From: Rhizobium sp. PP-CC-3A-592
GTDB lineage: Bacteria > Pseudomonadota > Alphaproteobacteria > Rhizobiales > Rhizobiaceae
NCBI RefSeq assembly: GCF_003217095.1
Contig: NZ_QJSR01000001.1
Span: 906,009 to 970,008 of the forward strand
Length of the DNA stretch: 64,000 bases
Direction: 5' to 3'
The translations under genes and the position numbers were made by a program. Positions 30,042-47,998 of the stretch are shown piece by piece (the first letter of the stretch is position 1; every line of letters begins with the position of its first letter). The notes beneath the pieces were generated by a model that was not told the origin of the DNA, did no database searches, and saw only the letters and a program-made list of their open reading frames with translations.

Positions 30042-30092
30042 TCTTCCCGTGGAAATTCAATAGTTTAGCTTCATGTCGCCAGTGTTGGGAAC

Positions 30093-30113
30093 ACCCCCAC
30101 GCTGCACCCCCAC
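30093..30113 (+). promoter_or_regulatory. Paired ACCCCCAC sites, left end (probable integrase arm sites)
   Basis: ACCCCCAC at 30093 and 30106, a 13-bp step. The same pair with the same step occurs at the right end (47897 and 47910). The sites lie between attL and the integrase gene. Arm-type binding by the integrase or a directionality factor is inferred. Confidence 0.6.
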
Positions 30114-30128
30114 AAGGTGCTTTTGGCG

Positions 30129-32429: not shown

Positions 32430-32669
32430 ATGAAGACCATCACCACTGTAATTCGCGGCATCGCAACAGATGTCCTCGTCATAGAGACAGTGCAAACGGA
32501 TGCCGTTGGCACTCTTTTCTATCGCGCTGAAATTCTCGTTCTACATCGAAAAACTGGAGCACAGAAGCTCGTTCGACGGACCAGAATTCCGAACACTGCC
32601 CGAATCCTTGCCCGCGAGTTGCACCTCAGAGGTCTGCGAGCTTTAGAAGCTTTTTCGACCGTAGAGTGA
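32430..32669 (+). CDS. Small hypothetical protein
   Basis: 79 residues, mixed beta/alpha character with a basic middle (LHRKTGAQKLVRRTRIPNTA). No recognised domain and only a weak ribosome binding site. It begins the small plus-strand gene group after the integrase. Confidence 0.45.
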   Translation: MKTITTVIRGIATDVLVIETVQTDAVGTLFYRAEILVLHRKTGAQKLVRRTRIPNTARILARELHLRGLRALEAFSTVE

Positions 32670-32890
32670 AATATTTTTCCAAGGACTCGTTCCGGCAAAT
32701 GAAGGATTCAATGTCCCTCGAATCCTTTGTGGCAAGGACTCAAAACGCTCGCAACGACACTGAATGCTCCCCTCAAGGATATGAAATACCTCGCTTTTTT
32801 TCTCGGAAGCGGCAACCCTGTGTCGGTCATCAGGGCTCGCAGGGCGGGTCGAGAAGGCCGCTGCGCCTGACAACCGGAAAGGACAAACAC

Positions 32891-33520
32891 ATGCAGAATA
32901 CGGACATCATCATAGAGTCTTGGGACGGCGACCTCGCCTTCACTACAGAAGCAACAGCATCTGACGGCCGTTTCCTCAGCCTCTATGCGGCTCCGCTCCC
33001 GGCATGCGTATGGGGTAGGTGGATGTACACCGTGGACACTAGCGAAGAAGCCGGCGACCATGAGCTACGGCCCATCGCAATGGAAATTGCGTACACAAAA
33101 GAAGACGCATTCGCCGCTGCCGAGGAAGCCGCCCGACAGTGGCTGCGTCCTACCCTCCGACTCGAATTAGTTGCTTTGAAAGGAACGACAATGGACTTCA
33201 ATACCTGGAAACATCTCTCCCCGGTCCAAAGCATGGCAGAACGGCTTGGCTTCCAGGCCTTGGCAATGTGCCGCGACTGGGACGACTACAGAAACCGCTT
33301 CATCAGCGCGAATGGTGACGCGGGCAGAATGGTCAAAGCGACAGAAAGTCTCTGGGACTACCTCTCGACGGGTGAACGGCCGGTCTTGGCCGCGATGTTG
33401 CATGCGGCTGACTTCTCAAGGCTTGCAGATCGTTTTTCCGGGGATGAAACCTGGACGACATTGGATCGCACGGAGGGAGACCATGCATTGGCAGTCGCCC
33501 TCGCGGTCCTGCGACGTTGA
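32891..33520 (+). CDS. Hypothetical protein of the mobile element
   Basis: 209 residues from MQNTDIIIESWDGDLAFTTE, preceded by GGAAAGGACAA. The open frame goes 75 codons further up but that part looks non-coding. Tryptophan-rich; a predicted alpha/beta N-terminal half (to about 95) and a helical C-terminal half with DWDDYRNRFISANGDAGRM. No family recognised. No signal or TM segment. Confidence 0.6.
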   Translation: MQNTDIIIESWDGDLAFTTEATASDGRFLSLYAAPLPACVWGRWMYTVDTSEEAGDHELRPIAMEIAYTKEDAFAAAEEAARQWLRPTLRLELVALKGTTMDFNTWKHLSPVQSMAERLGFQALAMCRDWDDYRNRFISANGDAGRMVKATESLWDYLSTGERPVLAAMLHAADFSRLADRFSGDETWTTLDRTEGDHALAVALAVLRR

Positions 33521-33796
33521 ACGCGTATGGGCGCATTCCAAAACCCAGACAGAGGCCTACATTGCGCTCCACGGCCTTCGAAACCAACGAACATCGACAG
33601 CGGGGCAGATTGGCCCCGATGAAGTTGACCAGCGCGATTTGATTGGCCAAATAAGTCCGTCAGTCGAGATCCAAAGCCCCATTCTCAAGCTCTTCGGCAA
33701 CATTTACTTCAACGTCCCGGTTTCCGAGCGATTGGAATCGATGCTAGTGATCGGGGAGGTCAGCGAGGCTAGTGCCGAAGAGTTTGATGCCGTCGA

Positions 33797-34414
33797 TCAT
33801 GGTTTCAACCCCGTTCCTGACGCTGGTTCGCCAGAACCGTCCTGTCCGGGATCAGGGGGCGTGTCTGGCAATTTCTGCTGCGCGGCCTCCCAACGCTTCG
33901 CCTCAGCGAGTACAGCGGCGGCAATTTCATCCTCGCTGGTTCCGTTGCGGCCCAGCATCTGCAATGACATCCAGTCTTCGATCAAAATGAGGCTGCGGAG
34001 CCAATCAACCGCCGCCGGCGGCACTCTGTATTCGAGTAGTTCGCTCGCCCTTTTCCTAGCCCGAGGACGTTTCAGATCTTTAACCAGCCGAGACCAGGTA
34101 GGTGCTGCACGACTGCTCGTCCTATTGAACGGAGGATCGATGCCACGCTCCATTGCAAATGCGGTAGGACCGCGATCCTCATCATCCAGATGATTGAACT
34201 CAGCTTTCCGAAGGGAGCGGGTCTCCGATGCGCGGAACCAAGCCTGCGGATTCGCCTCATGGTCATCGCACAGGCGCGAGGTCGCTCTGCTCCGACGCAA
34301 CGAGATGCCTACGGGCAACCGTAGGCAACGGGACTTAGGTACGAATGAGAACGACGGCATCGACGGCAAGATTGCCAGCGTGGCAGAAATCATTGCGAGT
34401 AGCTTGAGCAACAT
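33797..34414 (-). CDS. Hypothetical, possibly exported protein
   Basis: 205 residues from ATG 34414, which follows GGCAGGAAAG. It opens with a hydrophobic stretch (MLLKLLAMISATLAILPSMP) like a signal peptide or anchor. The middle is basic; the end has a helical segment (DEIAAAVLAEAKRWEAAQQK) and a Pro/Gly tail. No family recognised. Divergent from the first cytosine methyltransferase. A longer frame opens at 34516 without a good ribosome binding site. Confidence 0.45.
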   Translation of the reverse strand: MLLKLLAMISATLAILPSMPSFSFVPKSRCLRLPVGISLRRSRATSRLCDDHEANPQAWFRASETRSLRKAEFNHLDDEDRGPTAFAMERGIDPPFNRTSSRAAPTWSRLVKDLKRPRARKRASELLEYRVPPAAVDWLRSLILIEDWMSLQMLGRNGTSEDEIAAAVLAEAKRWEAAQQKLPDTPPDPGQDGSGEPASGTGLKP

Positions 34415-34686
34415 CTTTCCTGCCGGATCGCCTGTACGTTGGCGTTGGCGTCCGGTGAGATCATGACGCATCCGATCAGCGCAGTTCCGGTGCCTCTTTT
34501 TCGAGTTCGACTTCATCGGCGGCTACCTTCCCATTGCGTGCAACACTGCAAGAAGGATGCGTTTCGGCTTGTGCCGGCGCAATCGTAGTTTGACCGATTA
34601 CCATGCGCGTAGGTCGTTCATGCTTCCGGTGGTCCTTTGTTTCCGGTTTGGTAGGGAGGCATGGTCCATATTCCGTCACTTAATTC

Positions 34687-34696
34687 TACGTGATGC
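34687..34696 (+). promoter_or_regulatory. TACGTGATGC motif before the first dcm start
   Basis: This 10-mer ends 13 bp before the methyltransferase ATG. The same 10-mer forms the arms of the perfect inverted repeat at 38258-38287. It may be a shared operator. Confidence 0.4.
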
Positions 34697-34709
34697 CACG
34701 GCGGACATT

Positions 34710-36068
34710 ATGCGGGTAGTTGAATTGTTTTGCGGAGCTGGGGGAATGTCTCTTGGGCTCAAAGAAGCGGGATGCGATATCCTAGCGGCATACGATGCAT
34801 GGCCCGTCGCCGTAAGAAATTACAATCTCAATCTCGGCGATCATGCCCAGGTCTGCGACCTCGCAGATATTCTCGGTATTGTTCCGGACCTGTTGCGTCT
34901 GGCACCTGATCTTATCGCGGGTGGGCCGCCGTGTCAGGACTATTCAAGCGCCGGTCGTCGTGAGGAATCAAAGAACGCTCGACTAACGCTTGCATTCGCC
35001 ATCCTCGTTGCAACTGTGCGGCCTGCCTGGTTCCTTATGGAGAACGTTATCACCGCTCAGAAGTCAGCGACATGGCAGGAATCGCGGCGGGTCCTAAAAT
35101 CGGCTGGGTACGGCCTGACTGAAAGCAAGATCGACGCGAGCCACTACGGCGTTCCCCAGAGTCGTCGACGCTTCTTCGTCATTGGACGACTGGGGGAGCG
35201 TGATGGTTTCCTCTCTTCGGCAATCGCCGCAGCGGCAGCACCCCGGCCGATGACCATCCGTGATCTTTTCGGAGGCGATACACCCCTTGCCGTGTTTCTC
35301 CCTGGTACATCGGAGTCCCGGCGCTCGGTCTGGACAGGGGACGAACCCGCCCCAACTATCCGTGAGCGTAGTATCCGACCGCTCCCTGCCTCGTATCGGC
35401 CCCATCCCGACGATGCCATGGTGATCGAGAGAGGCTTCTTGTATTCACGGCCCGTGCGCGCCGGCCGCGGTGTCCGTTCGATCGACGAGCCCTATCCGAC
35501 AGTGACACGGACCGCGTGGGAACGTCCGACATCACGCTATCTCTCGTCGCCTCATCCTCGTGACCCCGTAGCCGCGGCATCCTCCGCGGTCTTGACCATT
35601 CCACAGATTTCGCAAATTCAAGGATTCCCGAGCTGGTGGAAATGGGAGACCACGGCGAAACGGGACATGCTACAGATGATCGCCAATGCCGTTCCAAGCC
35701 CGGTTTCAGCCGCGCTCGGTCGCGTCATCCTCGACCGTGAAGCGGGCAAGACCGCACCAGACATTTCCGGCGGGTTCTTGCAATGGCTTCACAAGCGGGG
35801 TCGATCTAAGGCATCCGCACGCAACGCGAAGGCATCCGCTGGCCGTGCGCGTCGGCTGCTCGGCGGGCGCACATTCGAGAACCCAGCGTTGGAGATCGCC
35901 GCCCTCGAGGGCATCGCGGAGTTTCAGAGGATGACGAAGCCGACCCAATCCGATCTTCGTCAAGCCTTGCGGTTATTGACGGAATACCAGATCAATCGCG
36001 TCCAGCGCCGAAAGAAGACGCAGCAGAGCATCGCGCAGCCGATCGATAGGTTTGCCGCAGCGGCCTAA
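34710..36068 (+). CDS. DNA (cytosine-5-)-methyltransferase, first copy
   Basis: 452 residues from MRVVELFCGAGGMSLGLKEA (motif I). Motif IV GGPPCQDYSSAG with catalytic C75, motif VI FLMENV (E111), motif VIII QSRRRFFVIG, then a variable target-recognition region (about 190-290), IQGFPSWW and a motif X-like QMIANAVPSPVS. A basic C-terminal extension of about 110 residues (residues 345-452) is unusual. No restriction gene adjoins it, so it may be an orphan that protects the element. Start chosen on motif I; the frame opens 51 codons earlier. Confidence 0.93.
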   Translation: MRVVELFCGAGGMSLGLKEAGCDILAAYDAWPVAVRNYNLNLGDHAQVCDLADILGIVPDLLRLAPDLIAGGPPCQDYSSAGRREESKNARLTLAFAILVATVRPAWFLMENVITAQKSATWQESRRVLKSAGYGLTESKIDASHYGVPQSRRRFFVIGRLGERDGFLSSAIAAAAAPRPMTIRDLFGGDTPLAVFLPGTSESRRSVWTGDEPAPTIRERSIRPLPASYRPHPDDAMVIERGFLYSRPVRAGRGVRSIDEPYPTVTRTAWERPTSRYLSSPHPRDPVAAASSAVLTIPQISQIQGFPSWWKWETTAKRDMLQMIANAVPSPVSAALGRVILDREAGKTAPDISGGFLQWLHKRGRSKASARNAKASAGRARRLLGGRTFENPALEIAALEGIAEFQRMTKPTQSDLRQALRLLTEYQINRVQRRKKTQQSIAQPIDRFAAAA

Positions 36069-36280
36069 GGATGATGTTCGTTGTACTTGGGTATCCTTGG
36101 ATGCCGTATCGAGTATCCAGTATCGAACTCCGACGTACCTGAAAGTGCCAGACATCGTTAAACTCGCTGTACGGCCTTGTACGACGCACAAATTTTGGGC
36201 AAATCGAGATTTCTAAGCGTTTTGATGTCTATTGCAAGGAGATGAGGCCTATGGCTCCCGCCAAGAACTCTGATGAAAGA

Positions 36281-37552
36281 TCACGGGCGTCGAACAGTGG
36301 GTTTCGAAATGTCGGGTTCCGACGGACGCAGTGTCGCGAGTTCCTGTCGGGCCGCTGCCAATTGCCGCCCGGTGTCGGTGAGACTGTCGCGTAAGGTCTT
36401 CGCCCGCGCCTCCGCCTCCTTACGCCTGGCATCGGAGGTGCGGGCACGGTCGGTGGCATCGGATACGGCACGTCGGAGCGCTTCCATTTCGGTATCGACA
36501 GCAGCGCGGAAGCGGGCCGCCACCTTCGACTTTTTGAAGCCATCGAACGCGCTGCGCAGCGCGCTCGGTAGTCGTTGGAGCCGTGCCGTCGCCTCGCGGA
36601 CGCGAGCGGCCTCCTCGCGGACGCGGGACATCATCGATCGGGCTTTACGCTGTTCTTGCACGGCCTTGTCCTGAGCCGCTAACGCGGCTTCCGTCGCGGC
36701 CCTCGCGGCGGCAAGCTGGCGATCCGCTTCGGCCCTCATGGCAGCGGCCGCGGTCGCGATCTGGGCGGCCTCGTCCTTCGTTGCCGCAATCATGGATTCG
36801 CCTCGCACCTTCACAGCCATCGCACGTTCTATAGTCGTGCGTAGGGCATTGGCTTGAACCTGTTCTGCTTGCCATTCCGCCCGTGTCAGACGCCGCCGCT
36901 GCGGGCCGAGGCGGGTCAGGCCGCACGGGATAGCGACGGTCTCGTGATAAGCATCTTGCCATGCCCGCATCGCGGCCCGATATGCCGCATCACCGCGCTT
37001 GTTCAGGGCCTTGGTATCTTCACCGTCAACGGGACCGGTCGCCATCACAGCGGCCTTGGCGCACTGCCCTGGATGAAGGGCCGAGGCACGCATGGCCGGA
37101 TCGTCTGGCAGGATGTAGGCATGCAGATGGTAGTGAGCCTCGTCCTCATGTCTGATCACAGAAACCAGCTTGTCGCCGTGCTGGGACCTCAACCACGCTA
37201 TAGTTCGTTGTCCCCATTCCTCCGCCTCACGTTGCTTTTCCAGATCGGCGCGAACTTCTTCAATTGTATGCGGGTGACTGGCAACGACGGTCATGAGCGT
37301 GTGCTGGGTCTTCTGGACGCGCCGGGGCTTGCCGCCATTCGGCGTTGTCATGGCGGCATCGACGGCGGCATCGTGCAGCCGTTCCACCTCGTCCACGCCG
37401 ATGCCGAAAACGACGACGGGCGGAGATGGATTCGCAACGTGGACGGACGCGCCGGAATCGCGTCGGGCTTCGGCGAACACGAAACCCGTGGAGCGGCCCT
37501 TGCCGTCGCCCTTGCGCGAGAACGCTTCGAGATGGACGAATTGGAAACTCAT
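36281..37552 (-). CDS. Mob_Pre (MobV)-type relaxase
   Basis: 423 residues. The N-terminal relaxase domain carries the metal-binding triad HEDEAHYHLHAYILP (H135 to H144), matching H-x-D-E-x2-P/Y-H-x-H of plasmid mobilisation/recombination proteins. The C-terminal half (about 215-400) is a long Ala/Arg/Glu coiled coil. It would nick oriT and lead the strand in transfer. It is last in a three-gene operon, sharing TGATG with the upstream gene. Confidence 0.85.
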   Translation of the reverse strand: MSFQFVHLEAFSRKGDGKGRSTGFVFAEARRDSGASVHVANPSPPVVVFGIGVDEVERLHDAAVDAAMTTPNGGKPRRVQKTQHTLMTVVASHPHTIEEVRADLEKQREAEEWGQRTIAWLRSQHGDKLVSVIRHEDEAHYHLHAYILPDDPAMRASALHPGQCAKAAVMATGPVDGEDTKALNKRGDAAYRAAMRAWQDAYHETVAIPCGLTRLGPQRRRLTRAEWQAEQVQANALRTTIERAMAVKVRGESMIAATKDEAAQIATAAAAMRAEADRQLAAARAATEAALAAQDKAVQEQRKARSMMSRVREEAARVREATARLQRLPSALRSAFDGFKKSKVAARFRAAVDTEMEALRRAVSDATDRARTSDARRKEAEARAKTLRDSLTDTGRQLAAARQELATLRPSEPDISKPTVRRP

Positions 37553-37824
37553 CAGTGCTTCCGGGAGGTCGCCCCGCCTTCCGCATGGACATCTCGAATA
37601 AGCCGTTCGAGGAGATCAACGTTGCTACACACCATGCCGAGCGTCTTGGCTTCGAGGATCATGGATTCCTCGTATGTAGCCTTGTGCTCGGTATAGAGCG
37701 GTCCGAACCTCGGATCATTCTTGATCTGGGTCAGCAGAGCGATGCCAAGGCCATCCGCGCGAGCCTTGGCATAGACCATGCGGCGAACGCGATTACGCAG
37801 CGTGTAAGTGATACTCAGGACCAT
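37552..37824 (-). CDS. Small hypothetical protein of the mob operon
   Basis: 90 residues from the ATG at 37824; a GTG one codon earlier is possible. Basic N-terminus (TYTLRNRVRRMVYAKARADG) and no recognised domain. It shares one base with the upstream gene's stop and with the relaxase start (both TGATG), so the three are coupled. An auxiliary mobilisation role is inferred. Confidence 0.65.
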   Translation of the reverse strand: MVLSITYTLRNRVRRMVYAKARADGLGIALLTQIKNDPRFGPLYTEHKATYEESMILEAKTLGMVCSNVDLLERLIRDVHAEGGATSRKH

Positions 37825-38081
37825 CACAGAGCCTCCGCATAGTCGTAGTCGATGCCTTGGGTGAAACTGACGACAAGTCGGACGCGATTGAGGAATGCTT
37901 CATCGCCCAGATGCTCATAGCAGCCGTTCAGTTCTGTCCGGCCCTGCGAGAAGCTGGCATATCGTTCTGGGTTCTCCCAGACTACCGCGTACCACGACGT
38001 TGGCAGCCGAATGACCTTGAGCAGCGCCGACGTAGGCAGGCTATGGTTCGTGACAATGATTGGCAGATCGTATTGCCGCAT
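37824..38081 (-). CDS. Small hypothetical protein, first gene of the mob operon
   Basis: 85 residues (MRQYDLPIIVTNHSLPTSAL...). Predicted alpha/beta, not obviously DNA-binding, no family recognised. Its upstream region contains the two inverted repeats at 38258-38311, a candidate oriT or operator. Confidence 0.6.
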   Translation of the reverse strand: MRQYDLPIIVTNHSLPTSALLKVIRLPTSWYAVVWENPERYASFSQGRTELNGCYEHLGDEAFLNRVRLVVSFTQGIDYDYAEAL

Positions 38082-38257
38082 GTGATCCTCCCGGAGAATG
38101 CTGGTGGAAGAATCTTCAGCGCCGGCGGAGCCGGGAACAAGTCTTTAGTGACCGACTAATGGCTTTCCCTGCGGTCAAGCCGTCGGCCCTTCGGGGAGGC
38201 TTCCGCCAGACTCTTCCGAGGCACCTGGCAAGGGCCTTGTCACCAACCTTCGGACGA

Positions 38258-38311
38258 ATAGCATCACGTAGTTTTACGTGATGCTATGGTGACGACCATT
38301 ATCGTCGTCAC
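38258..38311. promoter_or_regulatory. Two adjacent perfect inverted repeats (candidate oriT or operator)
   Basis: ATAGCATCACGTA / TACGTGATGCTAT with a 4-nt spacer (38258-38287), then GTGACGAC / GTCGTCAC with a 7-nt spacer (38289-38311). They lie in the 374-bp non-coding stretch (38082-38455) between the mob operon and the replicase-like gene, where an origin of transfer is expected. No other gene is visible there. Confidence 0.55.
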
Positions 38312-38455
38312 GTCGCTTCGCGATAGCGTCCGTGTCGTACAACGATGGACGCTAGATGACGCGGTAGGAGGTGTATTTCTGGTATGGCCGAGGGATGCTG
38401 CTACCTTTTTATCTATACACCTATCTTCACCGTCAAATAGTTGTGGTCACCGCGC

Positions 38456-39802
38456 CTACACAACTTCTCTCCATCGAGCTGTTGCTGTACGGACGGAAAC
38501 GCCTGCTTCAGCGGCAAGCGCCGCCCGCGTCACGACCTTGCCTGACGAGATGAGCCGTTGGTGGCCTTCTCGTAGCCGCTGGAGCGTATTTACGCCTTTT
38601 GCCTTCCCTGAATACCGTCCGCCCGCCGACTGTCGCTCAGTGACCGTCTTAAGACTATCCACGACATCGAGAATGCGGCCACGGTTCACAGCCTTTCCTT
38701 CGAGTTTCATCGGATCAAAGTTCGCGACCAGATAGTCGGAAACCTTGGCCGTGACATAGCTGACGGTCTTGTCTTCATGACCGACCTTGTCGGCGTAGTC
38801 GGCAAGCGCCTCATGGAGATGATCGGCCAACGCGGCGGGGCTACCATGCATGCGTGCATCGGCTCCGAAATGCCATTCGGCAAGGAGTCGTTGGCCCTCC
38901 ATGCGCAACGCGTCGAAGATCGCGTTCGATGCCGTGAGACCCAGCCCGGATTGCGCCGCCGCAGCCTTGCGAACGAGAACCGCCCGTCCGACGCTGGTGT
39001 CCACGTAGTCAGTGTATTCCGACAGTGTGGGCCATATGCCTTCGTTCGGCGTCAGCGTGTGCCAGTACGGACTAGTCGGGCATTTCATTCGTCCGGTCAT
39101 CGTCGGTGCTGCCGGATCGGCTCCTATATCCAGGAGCGCCGCCGCAAGGCCACGCGCTACCGCATCGAACAACTGGATGGGCTTCTGGCGGCATCGCTTG
39201 TCGTCGCTCCGCCAGACCGCCGATCCTTGCGGCAGCAGCCAGATGAAGTGCGGACGGGAATAGCGACCATCTTTCAGCAAGTCGCCGACGATGATATGCG
39301 GAAGGCAAGGAACCCGACCGTCCCGCACCTGTTCCGTTAAAGCGGCAAGGCATGCGGCCGGACTCAGAAATACGCCGTCGCAGTCCACGCGTAGCGCAGC
39401 CATGAACTCCCGGTTTAACTCGATGTACGGATAGTCGAGAGTCAAAATCTTTTGCGGACATTGAACGTCGAGATTCGCCTTGTCCCAAGACGCTCGTGCC
39501 CGGCTACCCTTCGGGACAAGCGTGACGAAATATTTGAGCACCGCGTTGTCTTCTGATCGTAGGCCCATTTCATGGACCCCGCTCCGCCACCGGCCGCCGA
39601 TGTGGCGTTCGCCTGACTGGATATAGCCACGCGACAGCCGCTTCCTCACGAGTTCTCGCTGTTCCGCTGCCTGCCGCGCGAAGAATGCGGTGTCGTAGTC
39701 GGTAGTGCGCTCGGCGCGATTATCGCGCTGTTCCGCCTTGCGAAGGCGCTCACGGCGCGTAAGCCGCTGAGCTTCCTCGTACCGGGTTTCGAAGCCAGTC
39801 AT
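38456..39802 (-). CDS. Plasmid replicase-like protein
   Basis: 448 residues from MTGFETRYEEAQRLTRRERL. The N-terminus is a basic coiled coil. The centre (PHIIVGDLLKDGRYSRPHFI, then WLLPQGSAVW) resembles the plasmid replicase/primase family, and FDAVARGLAAALLDIGAD follows. The C-terminus has a helix-turn-helix (VTRAALAAEAGVSVRTATAR). It suggests the excised element can replicate. A longer start from TTG at 39895 is possible. Confidence 0.75.
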   Translation of the reverse strand: MTGFETRYEEAQRLTRRERLRKAEQRDNRAERTTDYDTAFFARQAAEQRELVRKRLSRGYIQSGERHIGGRWRSGVHEMGLRSEDNAVLKYFVTLVPKGSRARASWDKANLDVQCPQKILTLDYPYIELNREFMAALRVDCDGVFLSPAACLAALTEQVRDGRVPCLPHIIVGDLLKDGRYSRPHFIWLLPQGSAVWRSDDKRCRQKPIQLFDAVARGLAAALLDIGADPAAPTMTGRMKCPTSPYWHTLTPNEGIWPTLSEYTDYVDTSVGRAVLVRKAAAAQSGLGLTASNAIFDALRMEGQRLLAEWHFGADARMHGSPAALADHLHEALADYADKVGHEDKTVSYVTAKVSDYLVANFDPMKLEGKAVNRGRILDVVDSLKTVTERQSAGGRYSGKAKGVNTLQRLREGHQRLISSGKVVTRAALAAEAGVSVRTATARWREVV

Positions 39803-39892
39803 GGCGTTCGTCGACACCGGGAGTAATTGTTGACAATGATTTTGGGTGTGCGTGGGCGTCGTTGCGGCTGGGGTAAGATCCAGCCGGCGGGT

Positions 39893-40026
39893 CAACGACC
39901 CGTGTGAAGGGTCTTTACATCAATGTCGCCGTAAGCAATCATGTGAATACATTCCTAAAAGCCGCCGAGGGTTCCAGCCCGATGACAGCGGCTTTTATCA
40001 TGCTCTTTCTACGGCGCACGTGTGTC
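39893..40026 (+). repeat. Structured repeat, copy 1
   Basis: About 130 bp, similar over its length to 45770-45907. It has hairpin A (GACCC/GGGTC followed by TTT, 39896-39917) and hairpin B (AAAAGCCGC 39957-39965 with GCGGCTTTT 39988-39996). Inside B a 3-bp stem GGG/CCC closes a TTCCAG loop. It lies upstream of the replicase-like gene on the opposite strand. See copy 2 for the compensatory change. Confidence 0.75.
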
Positions 40027-40039
40027 AAGCCGATGAGGC

Positions 40040-40762
40040 TCAATCCCATACAACTTCAGTTGCCAGGTACTCGGCAACGACTGCCCGAACCCGTATGCCG
40101 CCGTCATGGTCTAAGTGGTAGCGATAGTGTCCTCGCTGAACCACGATCCAACCATCTTCAAAGTCATCACCGGTCACCAAACGGCTCATCAATCGACTGC
40201 CCGCCTCCGGCCAACCTGAGATCCCTTGTAGCGAAAAGAAATCTTCCCGTTCTTCGTCGGTCATCGACGCCAACGGAATTGCCTTGACGAAGATCGGATC
40301 GTCCAGCATCGGCTCGCCTAGTTCGTAGTACGCGTGTCCGCGCGCATTCTTGACGACGACCCGCTTTATGCGTTCGTCATCAGGCATCCACAATATCCGG
40401 GTCTCGCCCCCAAGAGTAAGATATTCCTTCTTCGCAGCTTCAATCCTTGCCTGCAGGGCGGGGTTACCCGCCAAGGTCCGGGCAGCGACCTCCGACCTCT
40501 GCAATTCAGGATCGGTAGAACCAGAAAGGACAGCTCCAAGGAAGGCGACGAAATACTGTTCGTCCAAGGAGAATCCGACGTTGCACTCCGTGCAGATTTC
40601 CACGACGGGAAGCTGGGTAGGAAAAGGGCGCGAAAGTAGGCTCTGACTCGGCACATGGTCTCGATTGGTGCTTCTGCCGTGCAGCGTTCTGCTGCAGTGA
40701 ATGCACCACGACTTGTGGCGAAGGTCGGATGCATCCTCAATGCTTTTCAAGGAACGGGCCAT
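40040..40762 (-). CDS. HNH-like zinc protein, probable nuclease
   Basis: 240 residues. The N-terminal 65 residues hold C20-x2-C23, DHVPS (D35, H36) and C57-x2-C60-N61, the pattern of a zinc-stabilised HNH domain. The remaining 175 residues, with DDFEDGWIVVQRGHYRYHLD near the end, match nothing I recognise. Overlaps vsr by 26 bp, so it is probably cotranscribed with vsr and dcm. A restriction role is inferred from position and fold. Confidence 0.7.
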   Translation of the reverse strand: MARSLKSIEDASDLRHKSWCIHCSRTLHGRSTNRDHVPSQSLLSRPFPTQLPVVEICTECNVGFSLDEQYFVAFLGAVLSGSTDPELQRSEVAARTLAGNPALQARIEAAKKEYLTLGGETRILWMPDDERIKRVVVKNARGHAYYELGEPMLDDPIFVKAIPLASMTDEEREDFFSLQGISGWPEAGSRLMSRLVTGDDFEDGWIVVQRGHYRYHLDHDGGIRVRAVVAEYLATEVVWD

Positions 40763-41180
40763 CCGGTTTCACAGATGACAGGATTTCATGGAGCCTCTGG
40801 CGAAGCTCGGCATCGGTCTTGGTCTCGCACTCCCAGATAGTGGCTACATTCCACCCTCTCGCTTCGAGCTCGATGCGCATGCGTTCATCCCTTTCAACAT
40901 TCGCCGAAAATTTGGAGTGCCAATATTCTTGCCGACTCTTGGGGAGCGATGCTTTCCTGCAACCGAGGTGTCGGTGCCAGAAGCAACCGTGAACGAACAA
41001 TGCCAAACGCTTCTTCGCGAACACGATGTCGGGTGTACCTGGAAGATCCTTGCGATGTAGACGAAACCGAAAGCCCAGCGCGTGGGCCGCCTTCCTGACT
41101 CGCATCTCTGGAGTCGTGTTCTTGCCCCTGACACGGGACATCAGCCATGACCGTCGTTCCGGAGTGAGCCGATCTACCAA
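40737..41180 (-). CDS. vsr: Very short patch repair endonuclease Vsr
   Basis: 147 residues. Vsr nicks T:G mismatches made by deamination of 5-methylcytosine. Signatures: RSWLMSRVRGKNTTPEMRVR, GTPDIVFAKKRLALFVHGCF (catalytic Asp), WHRHLGC (zinc site) and KFSANVERDERM. It starts 2 bp after the dcm stop, so it is paired with that methyltransferase. All key residues seem intact. Confidence 0.95.
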   Translation of the reverse strand: MVDRLTPERRSWLMSRVRGKNTTPEMRVRKAAHALGFRFRLHRKDLPGTPDIVFAKKRLALFVHGCFWHRHLGCRKASLPKSRQEYWHSKFSANVERDERMRIELEARGWNVATIWECETKTDAELRQRLHEILSSVKPDGPFLEKH

Positions 41181-41182
41181 AT

Positions 41183-42271
41183 CTATTCCGCCGCTACCTG
41201 CCTCTTTCCATCGATATCAAGCCGCTCGTAGACCTTTTCAAGGACTGCTTTTGCCATGATCGGAGAGACGCTGTTTCCTATCATCCTGAAACTATGCCAA
41301 GTGGTCGGATGAAATTTGAAGGAGTCGGGAAAGCCTTGTAGTCGAGCCGCTTCGCGGACTGTGATAACTCGCGGCTCTACAGGATGGAGCGGTCGTACCG
41401 CTTGGTAGGACCCTCGGTCGCTTCCCGTGCCGGCGCGTAACGTCGGGCACTGACCATCCCAAGCGAGCCGTGGGTGACGACCGACCTTATCCACCGTTCC
41501 AGGTTGAACCATCCGGAACCTTTCCACGACATTCGGGGTGTGCTCCGTACGGCGATTTCCGGTGAAGAGGCGATCCTCGCTTCCGAGGGATCGAGCGTAG
41601 GGACTTAGGTCAATGCGTTTGACCCTTTCCCAGACATCGAAGCCATCTGGATCCTCTTCGACATGCCTCGCCGACGATAGATCCATGATGGCATCCGACA
41701 CGGTTGCCGGGGCGGTCTTTGCCGCCAGGATGTCTTGAAGCGACAGAGGATCACAGCGTCGTCGATCAGTGCCGATTACAAACAGCCGCGGGCGTCGTGT
41801 GGCTGCCCCGAAGTCGGCCGCATCTAGGATTATTGGCCCGAGTAGATCGTATGCACCTTCAAGCAAATCAATAGCTTTGTTGAGCACCGGAAGCGCATCT
41901 GCGTATGCTAGACCTTGAACATTCTCCATCACGAAAAAGGCTGGTTTCAACTCGTTGACGAGGCGGAAATAGTGGCCCAAAAGATCGCGACGGGGGTCAT
42001 CCTCCCTACGATGCCCCATCGCACTGAACCCTTGGCAAGGCGGCCCGCCGAAGAGCCCGTCAATCTGACCGCCCGCCGCTACCTCGATGTCGCCGCCGGT
42101 CAACACGCCCAGATCAGCAAGAGCGAGCTTCGTGCCGGGAAAATTGGTCGAAACGGAGGATGTCAGAATGGGATCAATGTCGAACGAGACGGTCGGAGCG
42201 AGCCCTGCGCTGTGAGCACCCAGGGAAAAGCCCCCGCAGCCGCAAAAAAGGTCCACAATACGTGGTTGCAT
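41183..42271 (-). CDS. dcm: DNA (cytosine-5-)-methyltransferase, second copy (Vsr-linked)
   Basis: 361 residues from MQPRIVDLFCGCGGFSLGAH. Motif IV FGGPPCQGFSAMGHR (C79), motif VI FVMENVQG (E116), motif VIII region GAATRRPRLFVIG, target-recognition region about 180-280, and motifs IX/X in AARLQGFPDSF and RMIGNSVSP. It belongs to a different lineage from the copy at 34710. It forms a minus-strand operon with vsr and the HNH-like gene and is divergent from the GHKL ATPase with 89 bp between. Confidence 0.95.
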   Translation of the reverse strand: MQPRIVDLFCGCGGFSLGAHSAGLAPTVSFDIDPILTSSVSTNFPGTKLALADLGVLTGGDIEVAAGGQIDGLFGGPPCQGFSAMGHRREDDPRRDLLGHYFRLVNELKPAFFVMENVQGLAYADALPVLNKAIDLLEGAYDLLGPIILDAADFGAATRRPRLFVIGTDRRRCDPLSLQDILAAKTAPATVSDAIMDLSSARHVEEDPDGFDVWERVKRIDLSPYARSLGSEDRLFTGNRRTEHTPNVVERFRMVQPGTVDKVGRHPRLAWDGQCPTLRAGTGSDRGSYQAVRPLHPVEPRVITVREAARLQGFPDSFKFHPTTWHSFRMIGNSVSPIMAKAVLEKVYERLDIDGKRQVAAE

Positions 42272-42360
42272 TTTAACTTTTTCCCGCCCAAAACTTCTGT
42301 TTGAATTCCACATACATCATCTGCAGCGATTTTGGATACGCAATCTTTGGGGGATACAGA

Positions 42361-43785
42361 ATGTCAACCGACCAAAAAGTCATCGGCGAGGCTACGTCGT
42401 CCCCAACAAAGCTTTTCTTTGTAGCGATGCTAACTCGTGACATCGAACTCCAAGACGCGTTGCTCGACCTGCTCGACAACTGCGTTGACGGGATCCTACG
42501 ATCCGGTGGGGCTAAACATAATGCCGCCAAGCCGTATCAAGACTTTCACGCGATGATCGAACTGTCCAAGGACGGCTTCATCATCGAGGACAACTGTGGA
42601 GGAATACCGTTCGAGATCGCCGAGAAATACGCGTTCGCCATGGGGCGTCCGCCTGGCAATGCCGAAGGGGAAGGTACCGTCGGGATGTATGGGATCGGCA
42701 TGAAGCGCGCGATCTTCAAGATGGGTTCTGAGGCTCGGGTGGAATCCCGCAGCGATAAGGGCTTTGTCGTCGATATAACGTCGGAATGGATGCAGGACGA
42801 TAAATGGGCCGACTTGCCGATGTTCGAGCTGAGCGACGACGAAATTCCGGCCGGCGGAACGAAGATTATTGTGACATCGCTTCACCCGGACATCGCCAAG
42901 AATTTTGGAGACCCAGAATGGGTCGACGAGTTCCGAAAAGCCGTCGCCAGGCACTATGCTATTATTATTGCCAAAGGCTTCGAGGTGAAGATCGGCTCCC
43001 CTGAGGAGCTCGCAGCAGGAATAGGCCCAGTTCATGCCGAGGGGTTTCAACTGCTCGCCAGCAAATCTGAAGACGGTGGTAGTGTTATCGAACCCTATAT
43101 CTACAAGGGAACGTTACATGACGTGTCGGTCGAGATTTATGCAGGTCTATACCGCCAACTCCTGAATGCGGAGGAATTGGAGGACGAGGATGAGACCAGA
43201 GGCAGTACGGACGATGCAGGATGGACCGTTGCTTGCAACGACCGGATCGTGATCTGGAAAGACAAGTCGAAACTCACCGGCTGGGGCGAAGGTACCGTGC
43301 CCAACTACCATGGACAGTTCATTGCAATCACTGGACTAGTGCTGCTGTCGGCCAATGATCCGCACAAATTGCCATTGACGACAACCAAGCGAGGGATTGA
43401 CGGCGCTTCCAACGTGTATCTCGATGCCAAGGATTTGATGCGGGAAGCTACGAAGGCCCTGACGAGTTTCACCAATAAGTGGAAGAAATTTCCAGAGCAG
43501 CTTGAAACCCTTTATAAGGAAAGCGGATACGTCGATCTGCCAGCATTGCAAGCGATTTCTGCCGGCGCAAAGATGGACGTTGTCCGAAAATACCCGGACG
43601 TTCGCAAGATTGAGCCTCGACTACCAGTCCCTCCACAAGAGAAAACCAGTACACGGATCAGTTTCGTCGCGGAAAAGGCCGATGTCGGCCTGCTGGCAAC
43701 AAAGTTTTTCGACGACATTCGGACGAAACCTGGGATTGTCGGCGAGGAGGCGTTCCGACGTGCTGTGACCGAGGCGAAGCGATGA
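42361..43785 (+). CDS. GHKL (HSP90/MutL/MORC-like) ATPase
   Basis: 474 residues from ATG 42361 after GGGGGATACAGA. Bergerat-fold motifs: N box ALLDLLDNCVDG (D36, N40), G1 EDNCGG (D77-G81), and G2 GMYGIGMKRAIF (G108-G113). A linker domain resembling the GHKL transducer follows (about 210-370, with ALVLL-type strands and LPLTTTKRGID). The C-terminal 100 residues are variable. MutL/MORC-like ATPases are known in restriction-modification and defence loci. It overlaps its partner gene by 4 bp (ATGA). Confidence 0.9.
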   Translation: MSTDQKVIGEATSSPTKLFFVAMLTRDIELQDALLDLLDNCVDGILRSGGAKHNAAKPYQDFHAMIELSKDGFIIEDNCGGIPFEIAEKYAFAMGRPPGNAEGEGTVGMYGIGMKRAIFKMGSEARVESRSDKGFVVDITSEWMQDDKWADLPMFELSDDEIPAGGTKIIVTSLHPDIAKNFGDPEWVDEFRKAVARHYAIIIAKGFEVKIGSPEELAAGIGPVHAEGFQLLASKSEDGGSVIEPYIYKGTLHDVSVEIYAGLYRQLLNAEELEDEDETRGSTDDAGWTVACNDRIVIWKDKSKLTGWGEGTVPNYHGQFIAITGLVLLSANDPHKLPLTTTKRGIDGASNVYLDAKDLMREATKALTSFTNKWKKFPEQLETLYKESGYVDLPALQAISAGAKMDVVRKYPDVRKIEPRLPVPPQEKTSTRISFVAEKADVGLLATKFFDDIRTKPGIVGEEAFRRAVTEAKR

Positions 43786-44795
43786 GCGGCGCCTCTATAC
43801 CTTATCACCTACGGCCACACAAAGCGGTTGACCGACGACTTTTCCTCGATCTGCTTGGTCGGCTCGAACGTTGGATGCCTTTAAACGACTACGCTTACGT
43901 GAGCATGGGGGCCTATCCTCTCGAGGACCATCGTCTTGTTCACCGAGTGCTCGGCATCACTCGACTACTTGCATTCGACTTCGACGGCGAAGTTGTGGCA
44001 AGACAGGAATTCAACCGACCGCTGGATTCATGTCGCTGCGTCGAACTGAGCGCGCAAAAGTTGGTGGATGATTTCGACCGCATATTAAGTGACCAAGGTT
44101 TCGGTGATGCCCGAGGCGCGATCGTGTGGCTGGACTACACGGATCCTAAGCAACATGCGCAGCAGCTACGGGAGTTTCAAACCCTTCTCGACAAGCTGAC
44201 AGAAGGCGACATAGTTCGCGTCACGGTCAACGCTCACATCAACCTCCAGGTCGACAGTGCCGTCGGCTCCAAACCACTGACGAAGGATGAGAAGAGAGCT
44301 AAGATGCTCCAAATCATCAAGAGCAAAATGGGTGAGTATCTTCCTTCGAACACGACTGTCGACGACATGACCCAGGATAGGCTTCCCTCGGTGATCTCCA
44401 GGTCGTTCGGCGCTGCTGCTCACAAGGCATTCCAGTCGACCGGAACGAATACGTTCAAGCCGCTGTCGATCACCAGATACTCGGACGGCACACAAATGCT
44501 CTCAATGACGGGCATGGTCATTGCTCGGACTAAGGTTGAGGAGTTCGATGCCCGTATGCAGTGGCCTTCGTGGCCATTTGCTTCGGCGGACTGGGGAGCT
44601 GTACATCATCTCGTGGTCCCAAGTCTTACGTTAAGAGAGCGGCTTTTCCTCGAAAAGGGCATTGGCCGCACCACCGATGAGCTGATCAGCGAGCTCGGCT
44701 TCATATCTGCGGCCGACGTTCCACTCCAGGAATTTTTAGCGAGTTATCGGAACTACTACCGCTTTTACCCGACCCTGCTTTCGGCGGACGTGTGA
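43782..44795 (+). CDS. Partner protein of the GHKL ATPase, unrecognised family
   Basis: 337 residues. The N-terminal half has the strand/helix order of a Rossmann-like fold: YAYVSMGAYPLEDHRLVHRV, LLAFDFDGEVVARQEFNRP (acidic strand end), then GAIVWLDYTDPKQHAQQL and GDIVRVTVNAHIN. This resembles class I methyltransferase-type domains, but no SAM motif is certain. The C-terminal third is helical. It is translationally coupled to the GHKL gene and should act with it. Confidence 0.7.
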   Translation: MSGASIPYHLRPHKAVDRRLFLDLLGRLERWMPLNDYAYVSMGAYPLEDHRLVHRVLGITRLLAFDFDGEVVARQEFNRPLDSCRCVELSAQKLVDDFDRILSDQGFGDARGAIVWLDYTDPKQHAQQLREFQTLLDKLTEGDIVRVTVNAHINLQVDSAVGSKPLTKDEKRAKMLQIIKSKMGEYLPSNTTVDDMTQDRLPSVISRSFGAAAHKAFQSTGTNTFKPLSITRYSDGTQMLSMTGMVIARTKVEEFDARMQWPSWPFASADWGAVHHLVVPSLTLRERLFLEKGIGRTTDELISELGFISAADVPLQEFLASYRNYYRFYPTLLSADV

Positions 44796-44825
44796 CGAAT
44801 TAGGCGATCAAGCATCTGACAAAAG

Positions 44826-44853
44826 TCATCGACGATGGCAAGATCGTCGATGA
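44826..44853. terminator. Perfect hairpin after the GHKL operon
   Basis: TCATCGACGAT / ATCGTCGATGA, 11 bp, 6-nt loop, 30 bp after the partner gene. No T-run follows, so it could be an operator for the next gene instead. Confidence 0.5.
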
Positions 44854-44904
44854 TTGAAGTTGCTTCTATTTAGGATCATCGAAGCTCCGGATACGAATGG
44901 TCAT

Positions 44905-45669
44905 ATGGGTATGGGAATGCCGATGAAATCGTGGAAAGCAGAGTGGAAACCAAGACAGAAGCGAAACAGCACGTCAAGGCAAAAATTAAAGGCGTTCCTA
45001 TCCTTCCGATGGATCGGTCGGATAGTACGCTCGCAGTTTTTTTGGGAAAAGTTCGCGATCCTGGTCTCAACATCGGCTCTTATCGCGACGGCTATGCAGA
45101 CAGCCGCCTCACGACAGCAAGTGGAACTGATGCAAGCTCAATTGACCGCCGCCGACGTGAACGCGACAAGGATCAAACTCGGCACCGCCATATATAGTGC
45201 ATGTAATAAGCTCGCAGCCGGCCCTGTCAGGGCCTTCAAATACGATAACTTCCGCGTCGCGGGAAACGAGAGTGCTCCCCCCTTCACACTCCCCGTTATC
45301 GAGGGAAAGCCCTACGAAATCACTCCGAAAGACCGCGAAATCTTCGGTATGGCAATAGAGGATACAAAAAACGAAATTGGTCTACTTTTCATGCAAGCGA
45401 GTATGTTCGGCTCCATGGATTCTCTTAGTTTAATCGGCGAGATGAATAATGCTGTAGAAAATTATTTGACGCGAGCTCAAGACCTCGCCTCAGACTATAG
45501 ATCGCAGCGCGTGGATATTCGGTCTATCAACCGACTCGGTCATGAGTGCATGGGAGCCCTCCAAACGATTATTAATCGGTCATCGAAGTCGAGAGACTCG
45601 GCCGAGCATCTTAGGAAGATCGATCCGGACAACCAATTTCCTGCGCTTCATACCTCCGTCACCCCATAA
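44905..45669 (+). CDS. One-TM membrane protein, hypothetical
   Basis: 254 residues from the first ATG. A basic N-terminus (KAEWKPRQKRNSTSRQKLKA) precedes one TM helix (WEKFAILVSTSALIATAMQT), followed by a soluble helical domain. The frame opens at TTG 44854; the true start is uncertain among several Met codons. No family recognised. Between the GHKL pair and AbiTii gene, so it may be part of the defence cargo. Confidence 0.6.
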   Translation: MGMGMPMKSWKAEWKPRQKRNSTSRQKLKAFLSFRWIGRIVRSQFFWEKFAILVSTSALIATAMQTAASRQQVELMQAQLTAADVNATRIKLGTAIYSACNKLAAGPVRAFKYDNFRVAGNESAPPFTLPVIEGKPYEITPKDREIFGMAIEDTKNEIGLLFMQASMFGSMDSLSLIGEMNNAVENYLTRAQDLASDYRSQRVDIRSINRLGHECMGALQTIINRSSKSRDSAEHLRKIDPDNQFPALHTSVTP

Positions 45670-45769
45670 GGCCGCGTTTCCGGGATCCCACAATTGCGTT
45701 AGATTCGGAGATCGGCATTGAGATTATAAAATTCCTGTCGATCGGCTGGCTGATATGCCAGCCCCCGGC

Positions 45770-45907
45770 TCAAAGACCCGTTCTACGGGTCTTTGCAAAC
45801 CTTACGCCGTTGTTCACCATTATTGAACATTCTCCAGAAAAAGCCGCCGAGGATTCCAGTCCTGTTACAGCGGCTTTTTTCATGCTCGATCGTCGGCGCG
45901 AAAGCGT
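45770..45907 (+). repeat. Structured repeat, copy 2
   Basis: Homologous to 39893-40026. Hairpin A is AAAGACCCGT/ACGGGTCTTT (45772-45794). Hairpin B is AAAAAGCCGC (45838) with GCGGCTTTTT (to 45879), ending in a T-run. The inner stem is GGA/TCC around the same TTCCAG loop, where copy 1 has GGG/CCC: a compensatory base-pair change. It also acts as a probable terminator before the AbiTii gene. Confidence 0.75.
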
Positions 45908-45997
45908 CAAGGACCTCCAGTTACATCTCTTACAACGAGTGATGGAAATTGAGCTTGTGGCTCACTACATTCACAATTCGATGGTGTGGGGGATTCG

Positions 45998-46894
45998 ATG
46001 TCAGGACTGATTGAAGAGATACAGCGCGACGCGTTGAATAAAAACGTTCCGGTAGACGCGCTTCTTCGGAAAGTAAAACTCGCCGCCGCGAAGCTTCAGC
46101 TTGAATCCCTTGAGACGTGGATTGAACAGGAGCTGAACGGCTACAGTGGCGAGCTGCCACACTATAGAAAGATCACTGGGCAGCCGGCAGGCTGGAATCC
46201 ATACAACGGCTGGATACCCATTTACTCGGGCGACGAAAGGTTCATGGAGCTGATCAGCGAAGCTCCATTGGGACAGTCTGTGGCAACCCTACAAGACCTC
46301 ATCGACAACAATTCTGGCGGGTTACTTCACTTTCCTCTCCCGCCGGGCATGGTGGCATCACTCAATGAGCTCATGAGTTTCCAGACGCCGCGTATTGTGA
46401 TCCAGTTCGGGCGAGGGAGCGTCATCTCTGTCTTGGACTCAGTTCGGAACATGGTTCTCGATTGGGCGATCGAGATGGAGAAGAAGGGTGTGCTCGGAGA
46501 TGGGATGTCCTTTGATCCGCAAGAGAAGATACAGGCGAAACAGGCTATGACTACGTTCCACATCGGCAGTATCGGAAACTTTGTTGGAAACATGGGGGCG
46601 GGCAACACGTCCGGAGACATTGTCGCCTCCATAGAAGCCATTCAGAAAATCAAGGACGTCATCGACCAGATAAAGTCCTCTCAAAACGAACTGGTGAGGA
46701 GCGGGGTCGATGGCAACCAACTTTCATCCAAGATCGAGGAGATCGAGGATGCCGTGAACGCCCCGCAGCCCGAGAGAGGGCGGCTGAGAGGGCTTCTGGA
46801 AGATACCCGGACTATATTAACCGGGGCTGCTGGAAACCTAACCGCAGAAGGCGCAATCGCGTTAATTACGGCGCTTGCGAGTTCACTGGGATAG
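45998..46894 (+). CDS. AbiTii-domain protein (abortive infection candidate)
   Basis: 298 residues from ATG 45998 after TGGGGGATTCG. The N-terminal AbiTii domain (about 1-190) is seen in SGLIEEIQRDALNKNVPVDA, LLRKVKLAAAKL, LESLETWIEQELNGYSGELP and HYRKITGQPAGW. The C-terminus has a glycine-rich turn, a coiled coil (IQKIKDVIDQIKSSQNELVR) and a hydrophobic end. AbiTii proteins are linked to phage resistance; the mechanism is unknown. It is 3 bp upstream of the zinc-ribbon gene. Confidence 0.82.
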   Translation: MSGLIEEIQRDALNKNVPVDALLRKVKLAAAKLQLESLETWIEQELNGYSGELPHYRKITGQPAGWNPYNGWIPIYSGDERFMELISEAPLGQSVATLQDLIDNNSGGLLHFPLPPGMVASLNELMSFQTPRIVIQFGRGSVISVLDSVRNMVLDWAIEMEKKGVLGDGMSFDPQEKIQAKQAMTTFHIGSIGNFVGNMGAGNTSGDIVASIEAIQKIKDVIDQIKSSQNELVRSGVDGNQLSSKIEEIEDAVNAPQPERGRLRGLLEDTRTILTGAAGNLTAEGAIALITALASSLG

Positions 46895-46897
46895 CCG

Positions 46898-47845
46898 ATG
46901 AACGACAAGCCAGAGCACAACAAGCTGGATGGTGATGATTGCGTTCTACCGCCCGACCACCCGCTACCGGCCGACCAACTTGGCCGATACAGTCCGGAAC
47001 GAGACTTTTACGCCGAGCGAGACATTGCAGACTATGTCGAAGGCCAGGCTCGTGGCGAAGAAACTGTGCTGAACGTGGAGCGTGTGAAGACCGAATACGT
47101 CCTGGGTGATGCATACGAAATTTGGGATGTCCATACCGACATAGACCGTTGGTGGGTCATTACTCACCCGACCAACCTCTACTCTCAACGACATTTCCCG
47201 AGCCTTGATTACACGTTGTCGTTTCACATCGGGCTCATGATGAGGGTGATGAGCCGATCTGAGAAGGACGGTGATGACGAGGGCTCGCCATTCGATGAAG
47301 TGACGCGCCGTCAGGTGCAAGCGGCAAAACTACTTGAAAGAGCGATCGAGGCCGTCGACTTCCAATCTGTCGGGATGCAGCTTCGCGAATGCCTGATCTC
47401 ACTGGTCAGTGCTGTGAGAAGGAGAGTGGAACTTGAGGCGGAAGCTGAGCAGCCAAAGGACGCAGATGTTATCGGCTGGAACCGCCTTTTGACCAGCAAG
47501 CTGTGTCCTGGTGAGAGGAACGACGAACTCCGCAACTACATGCGAGCAGTTGTCGAAAAGGCTTGGCCCCTGGTCAACTGGCTTACTCACCATCGGAATG
47601 CGAACAAGACCTCCGCACTGATTGCGCTGGATGCCGTGGATGCCATCGGCAAGCACTATATGCGACTGCTCAGTCGAGAACGGCATGACCGAACCGATCA
47701 GTGCCCAAGGTGCGCCTCTCGAAATTTGCGGACGTTCTTCGACATAGCGATCGCCCCCGAGGGAACCTACTTCGAATCCTGCGCCGAATGCGGCTGGGAT
47801 AGCCATCCGGGTTATCCCGATGACGAAGAAGTCGAGTCGCTGTAG
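46898..47845 (+). CDS. Zinc-ribbon hypothetical protein paired with AbiTii
   Basis: 315 residues. The C-terminus has a zinc ribbon CPRCASRNLRTFF ... SCAECGWDSHPGYP (two CxxC). The main body is helical (about 120-250) with an N-terminal segment containing EIWDVHTDIDRWWVITHPTN. No family recognised. The 3-bp gap after the AbiTii stop implies coupling and a shared function. Confidence 0.65.
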   Translation: MNDKPEHNKLDGDDCVLPPDHPLPADQLGRYSPERDFYAERDIADYVEGQARGEETVLNVERVKTEYVLGDAYEIWDVHTDIDRWWVITHPTNLYSQRHFPSLDYTLSFHIGLMMRVMSRSEKDGDDEGSPFDEVTRRQVQAAKLLERAIEAVDFQSVGMQLRECLISLVSAVRRRVELEAEAEQPKDADVIGWNRLLTSKLCPGERNDELRNYMRAVVEKAWPLVNWLTHHRNANKTSALIALDAVDAIGKHYMRLLSRERHDRTDQCPRCASRNLRTFFDIAIAPEGTYFESCAECGWDSHPGYPDDEEVESL

Positions 47846-47896
47846 CTTTCAAGGCAGAGTTCGCTGTCGCCGCGATGCCCCCTTTTAATTGTTGAC

Positions 47897-47917
47897 ACCC
47901 CCACAAACTACCCCCAC
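47897..47917 (+). promoter_or_regulatory. Paired ACCCCCAC sites, right end
   Basis: ACCCCCAC at 47897 and 47910, the same 13-bp step and orientation as at 30093/30106. In the circular form the two pairs would flank the core. Confidence 0.6.
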
Positions 47918-47980
47918 ATTGTTGACGCGACATTGAGCAACGCGTTGAAAATTAATGGGATTCCAGAGCGCCCGTCCGGC

Positions 47981-47998
47981 TCCAGGTTCCCCAGCCAA
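47981..47998 (+). other. attR core
   Basis: Exact copy of the 18-bp tRNA-Gln end (30024-30041). ATCTT follows in both places with a one-base shift. It ends the mobile element. Confidence 0.93.

Follow-up and report, generated by a model that had tools for sequence, protein, structure and literature searches.

Bacterial ATPases of the MORC and paraMORC type, which combine GHKL and S5 domains, are known from restriction-modification (R-M) loci in which they stand with Dcm, Vsr, HNH proteins and helicases, some of them fused to nuclease or TIR domains (Iyer 2008, PMC2292703). In the loci described there, which are laterally mobile, a GHKL+S5 ATPase is encoded next to DNA methylases and Vsr; some include an HNH protein, and some have no helicase. 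We found a neighbourhood of this kind, with a DNA methylase, Dcm, and the endonuclease Vsr, in a 64,000-nucleotide stretch of the genome of Rhizobium sp. PP-CC-3A-592 (hereafter, the window). Its ATPase has the GHKL and S5 domains and the conserved ATP-site motifs of paraMORC and MORC proteins, and is followed by a protein of the Methyltransf_35 family (PF20553), which we call the partner; the available passages of the paraMORC account mention neither a methyltransferase-fold partner nor a three-gene cassette. Across genomes, plasmids and viral contigs, the module's transferable core comprises the ATPase–partner pair together with Dcm, whereas Vsr is optional and the HNH gene of the window type is rare. 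The module is a further version of the paraMORC/R-M theme, and it would be more than that if the partner proves to be the weapon.

MZA systems are composed of MutL, Z1, DUF and AIPR proteins. These defence operons (mzaABCDE, Gao 2020) have a MutL-like ATPase, in which they resemble the window locus, and a related Z1 system includes a cytosine methylase (PMC9523054), but Pfam scans of ten window proteins matched neither Z1 nor AIPR. Pairs of HEF_HK and Response_reg_2 proteins also join a GHKL protein to a dedicated second gene near C5-methylases and Vsr (PMC8011034), although the window GHKL and partner gave no match to their families, PF19191 and PF19192, at an E-value limit of 0.1. DISARM contains Dcm, and two DISARM operons hold the GHKL–partner pair; by contrast, no DrmA, DrmB or DrmC was found among the ten scanned window proteins, whereas annotation places all three around the pair in one of those operons (L006). 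The window Dcm matched the DruM and DrmMII profiles of PADLOC-DB 2023, though less strongly than the top generic profiles for type II methylases. The GHKL-type Shedu protein VcSduA has an experimentally shown role in defence against phage (PMC12137116) and, as described there, carries a fused nuclease domain, DUF4263, that Pfam did not match in the window GHKL. Neither the GHKL nor the partner matched any profile of PADLOC-DB 2023 or NCBIfam 2026 at E up to 0.1, and PF20553, Methyltransf_35, phrog_20521 and phrog_19983 occurred in no paper of the open PMC literature that was searched. As far as these profile libraries and that literature go, the module apparently has no existing name, in agreement with an earlier, sequence-only reading of the locus that had called it a candidate undescribed defence system.

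The window locus consists of two divergent operons. On the minus strand lie dcm (41183–42313), encoding a C5-cytosine DNA methyltransferase of 376 residues, or 362 from an internal ATG at 42271 (PF00145, E 3.6e-54; PPC and ENV motifs present); vsr (40737–41180), encoding a very-short-patch endonuclease of 147 residues (PF03852, E 1.9e-28; TIGR00632, 146.2 bits against a cut-off of 97.85); and an intact gene for an HNH-like protein of 240 residues (40040–40762) that overlaps vsr by 26 bp. On the plus strand, the gene for the 474-residue GHKL+S5 ATPase (42361–43785; HATPase_c_3, E 7.6e-6, 26.4 bits against a cut-off of 25) is joined by an ATGA overlap to that of the 337-residue partner (43782–44795). 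Dcm, Vsr and the GHKL thus all score above curated cut-offs, whereas the HNH_5 match of the HNH-like protein (19.8 bits) falls under its cut-off of 27.5; the metal-binding and DH residues of an HNH site can be read by eye (C..C / DH..P / C..CN). The five intact genes in two divergent, coupled operons that the sequence-only reading had described were borne out in coordinates, overlaps and spacings by the open reading frames (ORFs) and the sequence. Its numbering of the Dcm cysteine as C79 and its 89-bp gap between the operons (42272–42360) both follow from taking the internal ATG at 42271 as the start of Dcm.

The pair formed by the GHKL and the partner is conserved. We surveyed genomes with PF20553 alone, without reference to the GHKL or Dcm, in overlapping draws within the phylum of the window; other phyla were reached through viral, plasmid and phage records. 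PF20553 is rare, occurring in 2 of 61 relatives, 3 of 397 genomes of the order, 5 of 385 of the class and 5 of 398 of the phylum, which amount to ten distinct genomes including that of the window. A GHKL gene directly adjoined the partner in all eight of the other genomes in which this could be judged; in the ninth (G386), the partner gene is cut by the start of the contig. Dcm was found near the module in eight of the nine other genomes with the partner, one of which (G051) has it about 8 kb upstream of the pair, where it heads a DISARM operon. This association goes further than chance would give, since matches to PF00145 are few in these genomes, from 0 to 5 per genome with pieces counted (nine genomes, including that of the window and excluding G1081). 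The partner was also accompanied by a GHKL and Dcm in a Caulobacter metagenome-assembled genome, which was the single locus returned by a scan of genome contigs, and in Pseudomonas phage PfAC20, a Microvirga plasmid and the Sinorhizobium plasmid psymA, where the partner gene is split by an insertion that, from its ORF, we read as IS66-type.

To extend this sample, we scanned IMG/VR with an alignment of GHKL proteins and took the best 80 of 87 relatives, of which 79 loci were kept; because the alignment was made from neighbours of the partner, it favours GHKLs of the pair type. The partner followed the GHKL in 69 of the 79 loci, and Dcm was present in 68 of these 69, the sole exception (L038) ending at a contig border. 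The window partner, used as a query against the viral contigs, found no relative there, and two other partner proteins found 15 and 3 loci on contigs already recovered through the GHKL. In total, 80 pair loci were assembled, 69 of them from the viral collection that we had deliberately searched, and their partners form 52 clusters at 90% identity, window included. The two genes lie on the same strand in 80/80 loci and overlap or stand within 60 bp of each other in 78/80, with the 4-base overlap seen in the window recurring in 39/80. Dcm was scored in 76 of the 80 loci as fetched, a count in which L004 and L006 are entered as lacking Dcm because in both the gene sits at the truncated edge of the fetched sequence. 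The placement of Dcm varies: it is convergent with the pair, co-directional on either side of it or divergent from it, as in the window and L001. In an annotated P2-like prophage (L102), the partner gene and a convergent Dcm gene run into each other by 50 bp at their 3′ ends (8365–8414), and the shared stretch is coding in both.

Pairwise protein distances were also compared. Over 48 loci (those pair loci that had a Dcm row and a partner of more than 250 residues; a 253-residue downstream piece of the broken Sinorhizobium meliloti partner was included), distances correlated with r of 0.93 between GHKL and partner, against 0.60 for GHKL and Dcm and 0.60 for partner and Dcm, each value being reached in 0 of 2,000 permutations, a measure of significance that does not correct for relatedness. 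Because of this difference, we read the pair as one tight two-protein unit, with the methylase exchanged more often.

The partner belongs to Methyltransf_35 over nearly its whole length (PF20553, residues 1–333 of 337, E 1.1e-77, 261.9 bits against a cut-off of 27) and to phrog_19983, a family of unknown function in PHROGs (E 2.2e-66). The sequence-only reading had called it an unrecognised Rossmann-like protein; it is a recognised family, whereas the Rossmann-like character is upheld by the predicted structure. In its AlphaFold2 model (mean predicted local distance difference test score (pLDDT) 90.5), the partner is predicted to have the class I fold of S-adenosylmethionine (SAM) methyltransferases, which supply the top PDB matches. 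The best Foldseek match was the tRNA (guanine-26) methyltransferase Trm1 of Aquifex (E 2.4e-6). With VIA-align, Trm1 aligned over nearly the full length of the partner (Z 14.1, 221 residues, root-mean-square deviation 4.0), tied for first with 1wxw (Z 14.1, 168 residues), and other RNA methyltransferases, among them TlyA and RlmJ, followed (Z 12.9 and 12.6). A closer relationship to Trm1 found no support at the sequence level: PF02005 was not among the families matched by 34 members of the partner family at E up to 1, and hhalign against two Trm1 sequences gave a probability of 0.3%. Trm1 is therefore a resemblance of fold only. Searches of PDB sequences with the partner profile returned nothing credible, with no match at E up to 1 for a 12-sequence profile and one isoprenyl transferase (E 0.28) for a 34-sequence profile. 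In such folds, an acidic residue that closes beta-2 has a role in SAM binding. In the partner, the acid at this position is conserved in 52/52 clusters as D/E66 (D66 in the window copy), alongside G43 (50/52) and D118 (51/52), positions that would be compatible with a working SAM site. Reading the alignment by hand, our impression is that D118 is a candidate counterpart of the catalytic Asp of Trm1.

The GHKL also falls in a PHROGs family of unknown function (phrog_20521, E 5.1e-141). Its AlphaFold2 model (pLDDT 87.1) best matched MORC3 (Z 21.8, 294 residues aligned), and a match to MORC2 covers the model up to residue 420, so that the final 54 residues are scarcely probed. The ATP-site positions D36, N40, D77, G81, G111, G113 and K343 are each conserved in 52 of the 52 clusters. 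In ten of the 79 viral loci, the GHKL stands alone, with no partner gene (L090, L092 and L094–L101), and nine of these ten have Dcm, L098, which ends at a contig border, showing none. The nine such GHKLs that lie clear of a contig end are long, at 573–631 residues. As a separate observation, their C-terminal extensions have an H in common close to the C terminus and are possibly HEPN-like, although no profile confirms this and neither Pfam nor NCBIfam showed an effector domain in them; the long GHKL of L099 matched MzaB at 29 bits, far under the cut-off of 850.

The remaining genes of the window locus are accessory. Vsr occurs in 16 of the 80 pair loci. Among 91 loci, phmmer found a single relative of the window HNH protein, in L063 (E 2.5e-43), and other HNH proteins lie near the module in L020, L021 and L066. 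A genome of the same order (G1081) has Dcm and Vsr divergent from GHKL and partner, as in the window, without the HNH gene and among metabolic and signalling neighbours; in locus L112, a molybdopterin oxidoreductase gene lies on one flank and the gene of a GGDEF protein on the other. In G358, GHKL, partner and Dcm are flanked by an alpha/beta hydrolase gene and the gene of a class II tRNA synthetase, and no nuclease gene was recognised with them. Because copies occur without Vsr and the HNH gene, the five-gene set of the window is best described as the core plus two accessories. In Caulobacter, a Vsr-like protein was reported to be harmful once the cytosine methylase is lost (PMC12907096), which would fit the keeping together of vsr and dcm. 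We also noted, in L014 (15395–16189) and L016 (7008–7841), a protein of 264–277 residues without a Pfam match directly after Dcm; it contains a VQAKGG stretch that, by eye, could be a site of the PD-(D/E)XK type.

The module is found in several mobile settings. An integrative element of about 18 kb at a tRNA-Gln gene (30024–47998) carries the window copy. In three annotated Escherichia coli chromosomes, the slot between the portal and replication endonuclease genes of a P2-like prophage is filled solely by genes annotated as an ATP-binding protein, an O-methyltransferase and a DNA cytosine methyltransferase; as their protein accessions are identical, these loci represent one cassette lineage. 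Of 5,426 E. coli genomes, 254 show any match to a related cassette, and 47 of these hold 80% or more of it. Twenty-one viral loci have the P2-type slot, and in nine of them only the core three genes lie between the portal and replication genes (mechanically called ORFs of 80 residues or more). P2-like phages are known to carry a hotspot of anti-phage systems (Rousset and colleagues, PMC9122126), which we read as the slot that holds this cassette. In PfAC20, genes for GHKL, partner and Dcm are consecutive; the passages available of its description report the cytosine methyltransferase only, as an incomplete system (PMC11878078). Elsewhere among Pf prophages, dcm or its pseudogene was reported after PA0718 in 21 of 182 (PMC7549136). 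Finally, two DISARM operons that start with Dcm and Vsr have the pair inserted after the large methylase gene and next to drmA, so that it separates these two genes (L004, 8461–10875; L006, 8570–10990). The carriers are the Microvirga plasmid, where DISARM is annotated, and G051, five of whose flanking genes are 66–90% identical to those of Microvirga; no mention of the pair as a DISARM extension was found in the available passages of the open PMC literature. The sequence-only reading had made its claim of novelty depend on the GHKL and partner keeping company with Dcm or Vsr elsewhere, and they do so in a recurrent, mobile, Dcm-linked module. These data describe a compact module present in E. 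coli P2-like prophages, a Pf phage and DISARM operons under the uninformative annotations O-methyltransferase, ATP-binding protein and incomplete R-M system, and it might account for some of the prophage dcm genes that appear solitary.

The adjacency of the pair, the link to Dcm, the distance correlation, the P2 slot, the insertion into DISARM and an AbiTii-type protein in the same element as the window copy favour the reading that follows. From this genomic context, a role in defence is likely, and the module probably distinguishes self from foreign DNA. We lean, with somewhat better than even confidence, towards an R-M-like self/non-self system with Dcm, the MORC-like GHKL and Methyltransf_35 as its core. 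In such a system, Dcm would methylate the cytosines of its own motif on resident DNA as a self mark, and the GHKL and the partner would form one complex in which a GHKL dimer closes on DNA in the manner of MutL or MORC. This complex would be held back on methylated DNA and activated by unmodified incoming DNA, with the partner acting as the specificity or effector subunit; by analogy, we infer that the partner may occupy the place where other systems keep an effector. Vsr would mend the T:G mismatches that deamination of 5-methylcytosine leaves behind, and at some loci cleavage might be added by nucleases of the HNH or another type. The module also offers a minimal system for asking what bacterial MORC-type ATPases do on DNA.

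Several observations weigh against this reading. The catalytic base of GHKL ATPases is usually Glu; here, the position is Asp (D36) in 52/52 clusters, and ATP turnover by the GHKL may therefore be slow. Dcm itself is replaceable, as in G714, a genome with no Dcm match, the pair (L022, 9480–17052) stands divergent from a 469-residue protein, an SNF2 helicase, a NOV_C protein and an N4/N6 amino-methyltransferase. In the remaining 12 of the 21 P2-type slots, one or two further ORFs of 81–183 residues, which were not scanned, accompany the core. Many copies of the module are carried by prophages, and their Dcm could work on behalf of the phage. Moreover, no nuclease was recognised in the core three genes. 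This raises the question of how a methylase-guarded system could act without a recognisable nuclease. One tentative answer, which we regard as possible though rather unlikely, is nuclease-free restriction: unmethylated DNA would lead the ATPase to trigger Methyltransf_35, Trm1-like in fold, to methylate phage DNA or tRNA/rRNA and so ruin the infection, with the Dcm mark as the off switch. If this is true, methylation would serve as the weapon, and self would be marked by another methylation of a different kind.

The sequence-only reading had instead made the HNH protein the attacker, alongside the ATPase pair. Under that explanation, the HNH protein, or Vsr, would be the restriction nuclease directed by the ATPase pair and the system would comprise all five genes. 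The intact HNH gene with its 26-bp overlap with vsr would fit, as would the HNH-type proteins encoded close to the module at four further loci (L020, L021, L063 and L066) and the protein without a family match directly after Dcm in L014 and L016. This part of the earlier proposal found no support, however: the window HNH protein has a single relative in 91 loci, Vsr is present in a fifth of pair loci (16/80), G1081 keeps the same divergent layout without the HNH gene, and copies with neither a recognised HNH nor Vsr exist, as in the annotated P2-like prophages and G358, where the core has no recognised nuclease gene beside it. We therefore consider a five-gene nuclease system improbable. A role outside host defence, in which a prophage Dcm guards phage DNA or tunes the phage cycle and the pair serves phage replication or packaging, seems to us similarly doubtful. 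It would agree with the viral origin of 69 of the 80 pair loci, although these came from a collection searched on purpose, and with the dcm genes and pseudogenes of Pf prophages. On the other hand, chromosomal copies lie among non-phage genes, as in L017 (tRNA synthetase and hydrolase) and L112, other copies sit in DISARM operons or in an integrative element with AbiTii, and P2-like phages are themselves known carriers of defence cargo (PMC9122126).

It is also conceivable, if rather unlikely, that the module is a toxin–antidote or abortive system in which loss of methylation, or an unmethylated invader, triggers a toxic activity against the whole cell and foreign DNA is not cut. The long, partner-less GHKLs that keep Dcm would be in line with this, since paraMORC ATPases fused to HEPN (Ymh) domains have been described in R-M loci (PMC3710099), as have fused TIR and nuclease domains (PMC2292703), and by analogy the Methyltransf_35 partner may fill that effector slot. 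However, no HEPN, TIR or nuclease match was found in the long GHKLs (six scanned against Pfam, eight against NCBIfam), and an analogy of slots is no test.

The element that carries the window copy is bounded by an 18-bp exact repeat, found at its left end at 30024–30041 (plus strand), where it comprises the 3′ end of tRNA-Gln (29967–30040, the insertion site) plus one base, and at its right end at 47981–47998 (plus strand). Beside the tRNA gene lies a putative tyrosine integrase of 583 residues (30117–31868, plus strand; DUF6538, E 1.6e-12; Phage_integrase, E 5.4e-6, 26.7 bits against a cut-off of 27.1). In a genome of the same genus (G002), the left flank, complete with its tRNA gene, runs directly into the right flank, as expected of an empty site. 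In the short loci fetched from G001, G003 and G005, only 18–21 bases of the tRNA end are found at that border, which suggests other elements at the same tRNA; G004 has no such repeat at the border. Besides the module, the element encodes a MobV-like protein, scoring under its cut-off; a second C5-cytosine methylase, away from the module (34557–36068; PF00145, E 5.7e-44); and the AbiTii-type abortive infection protein (45986–46894; PF18864, E 1.9e-47).

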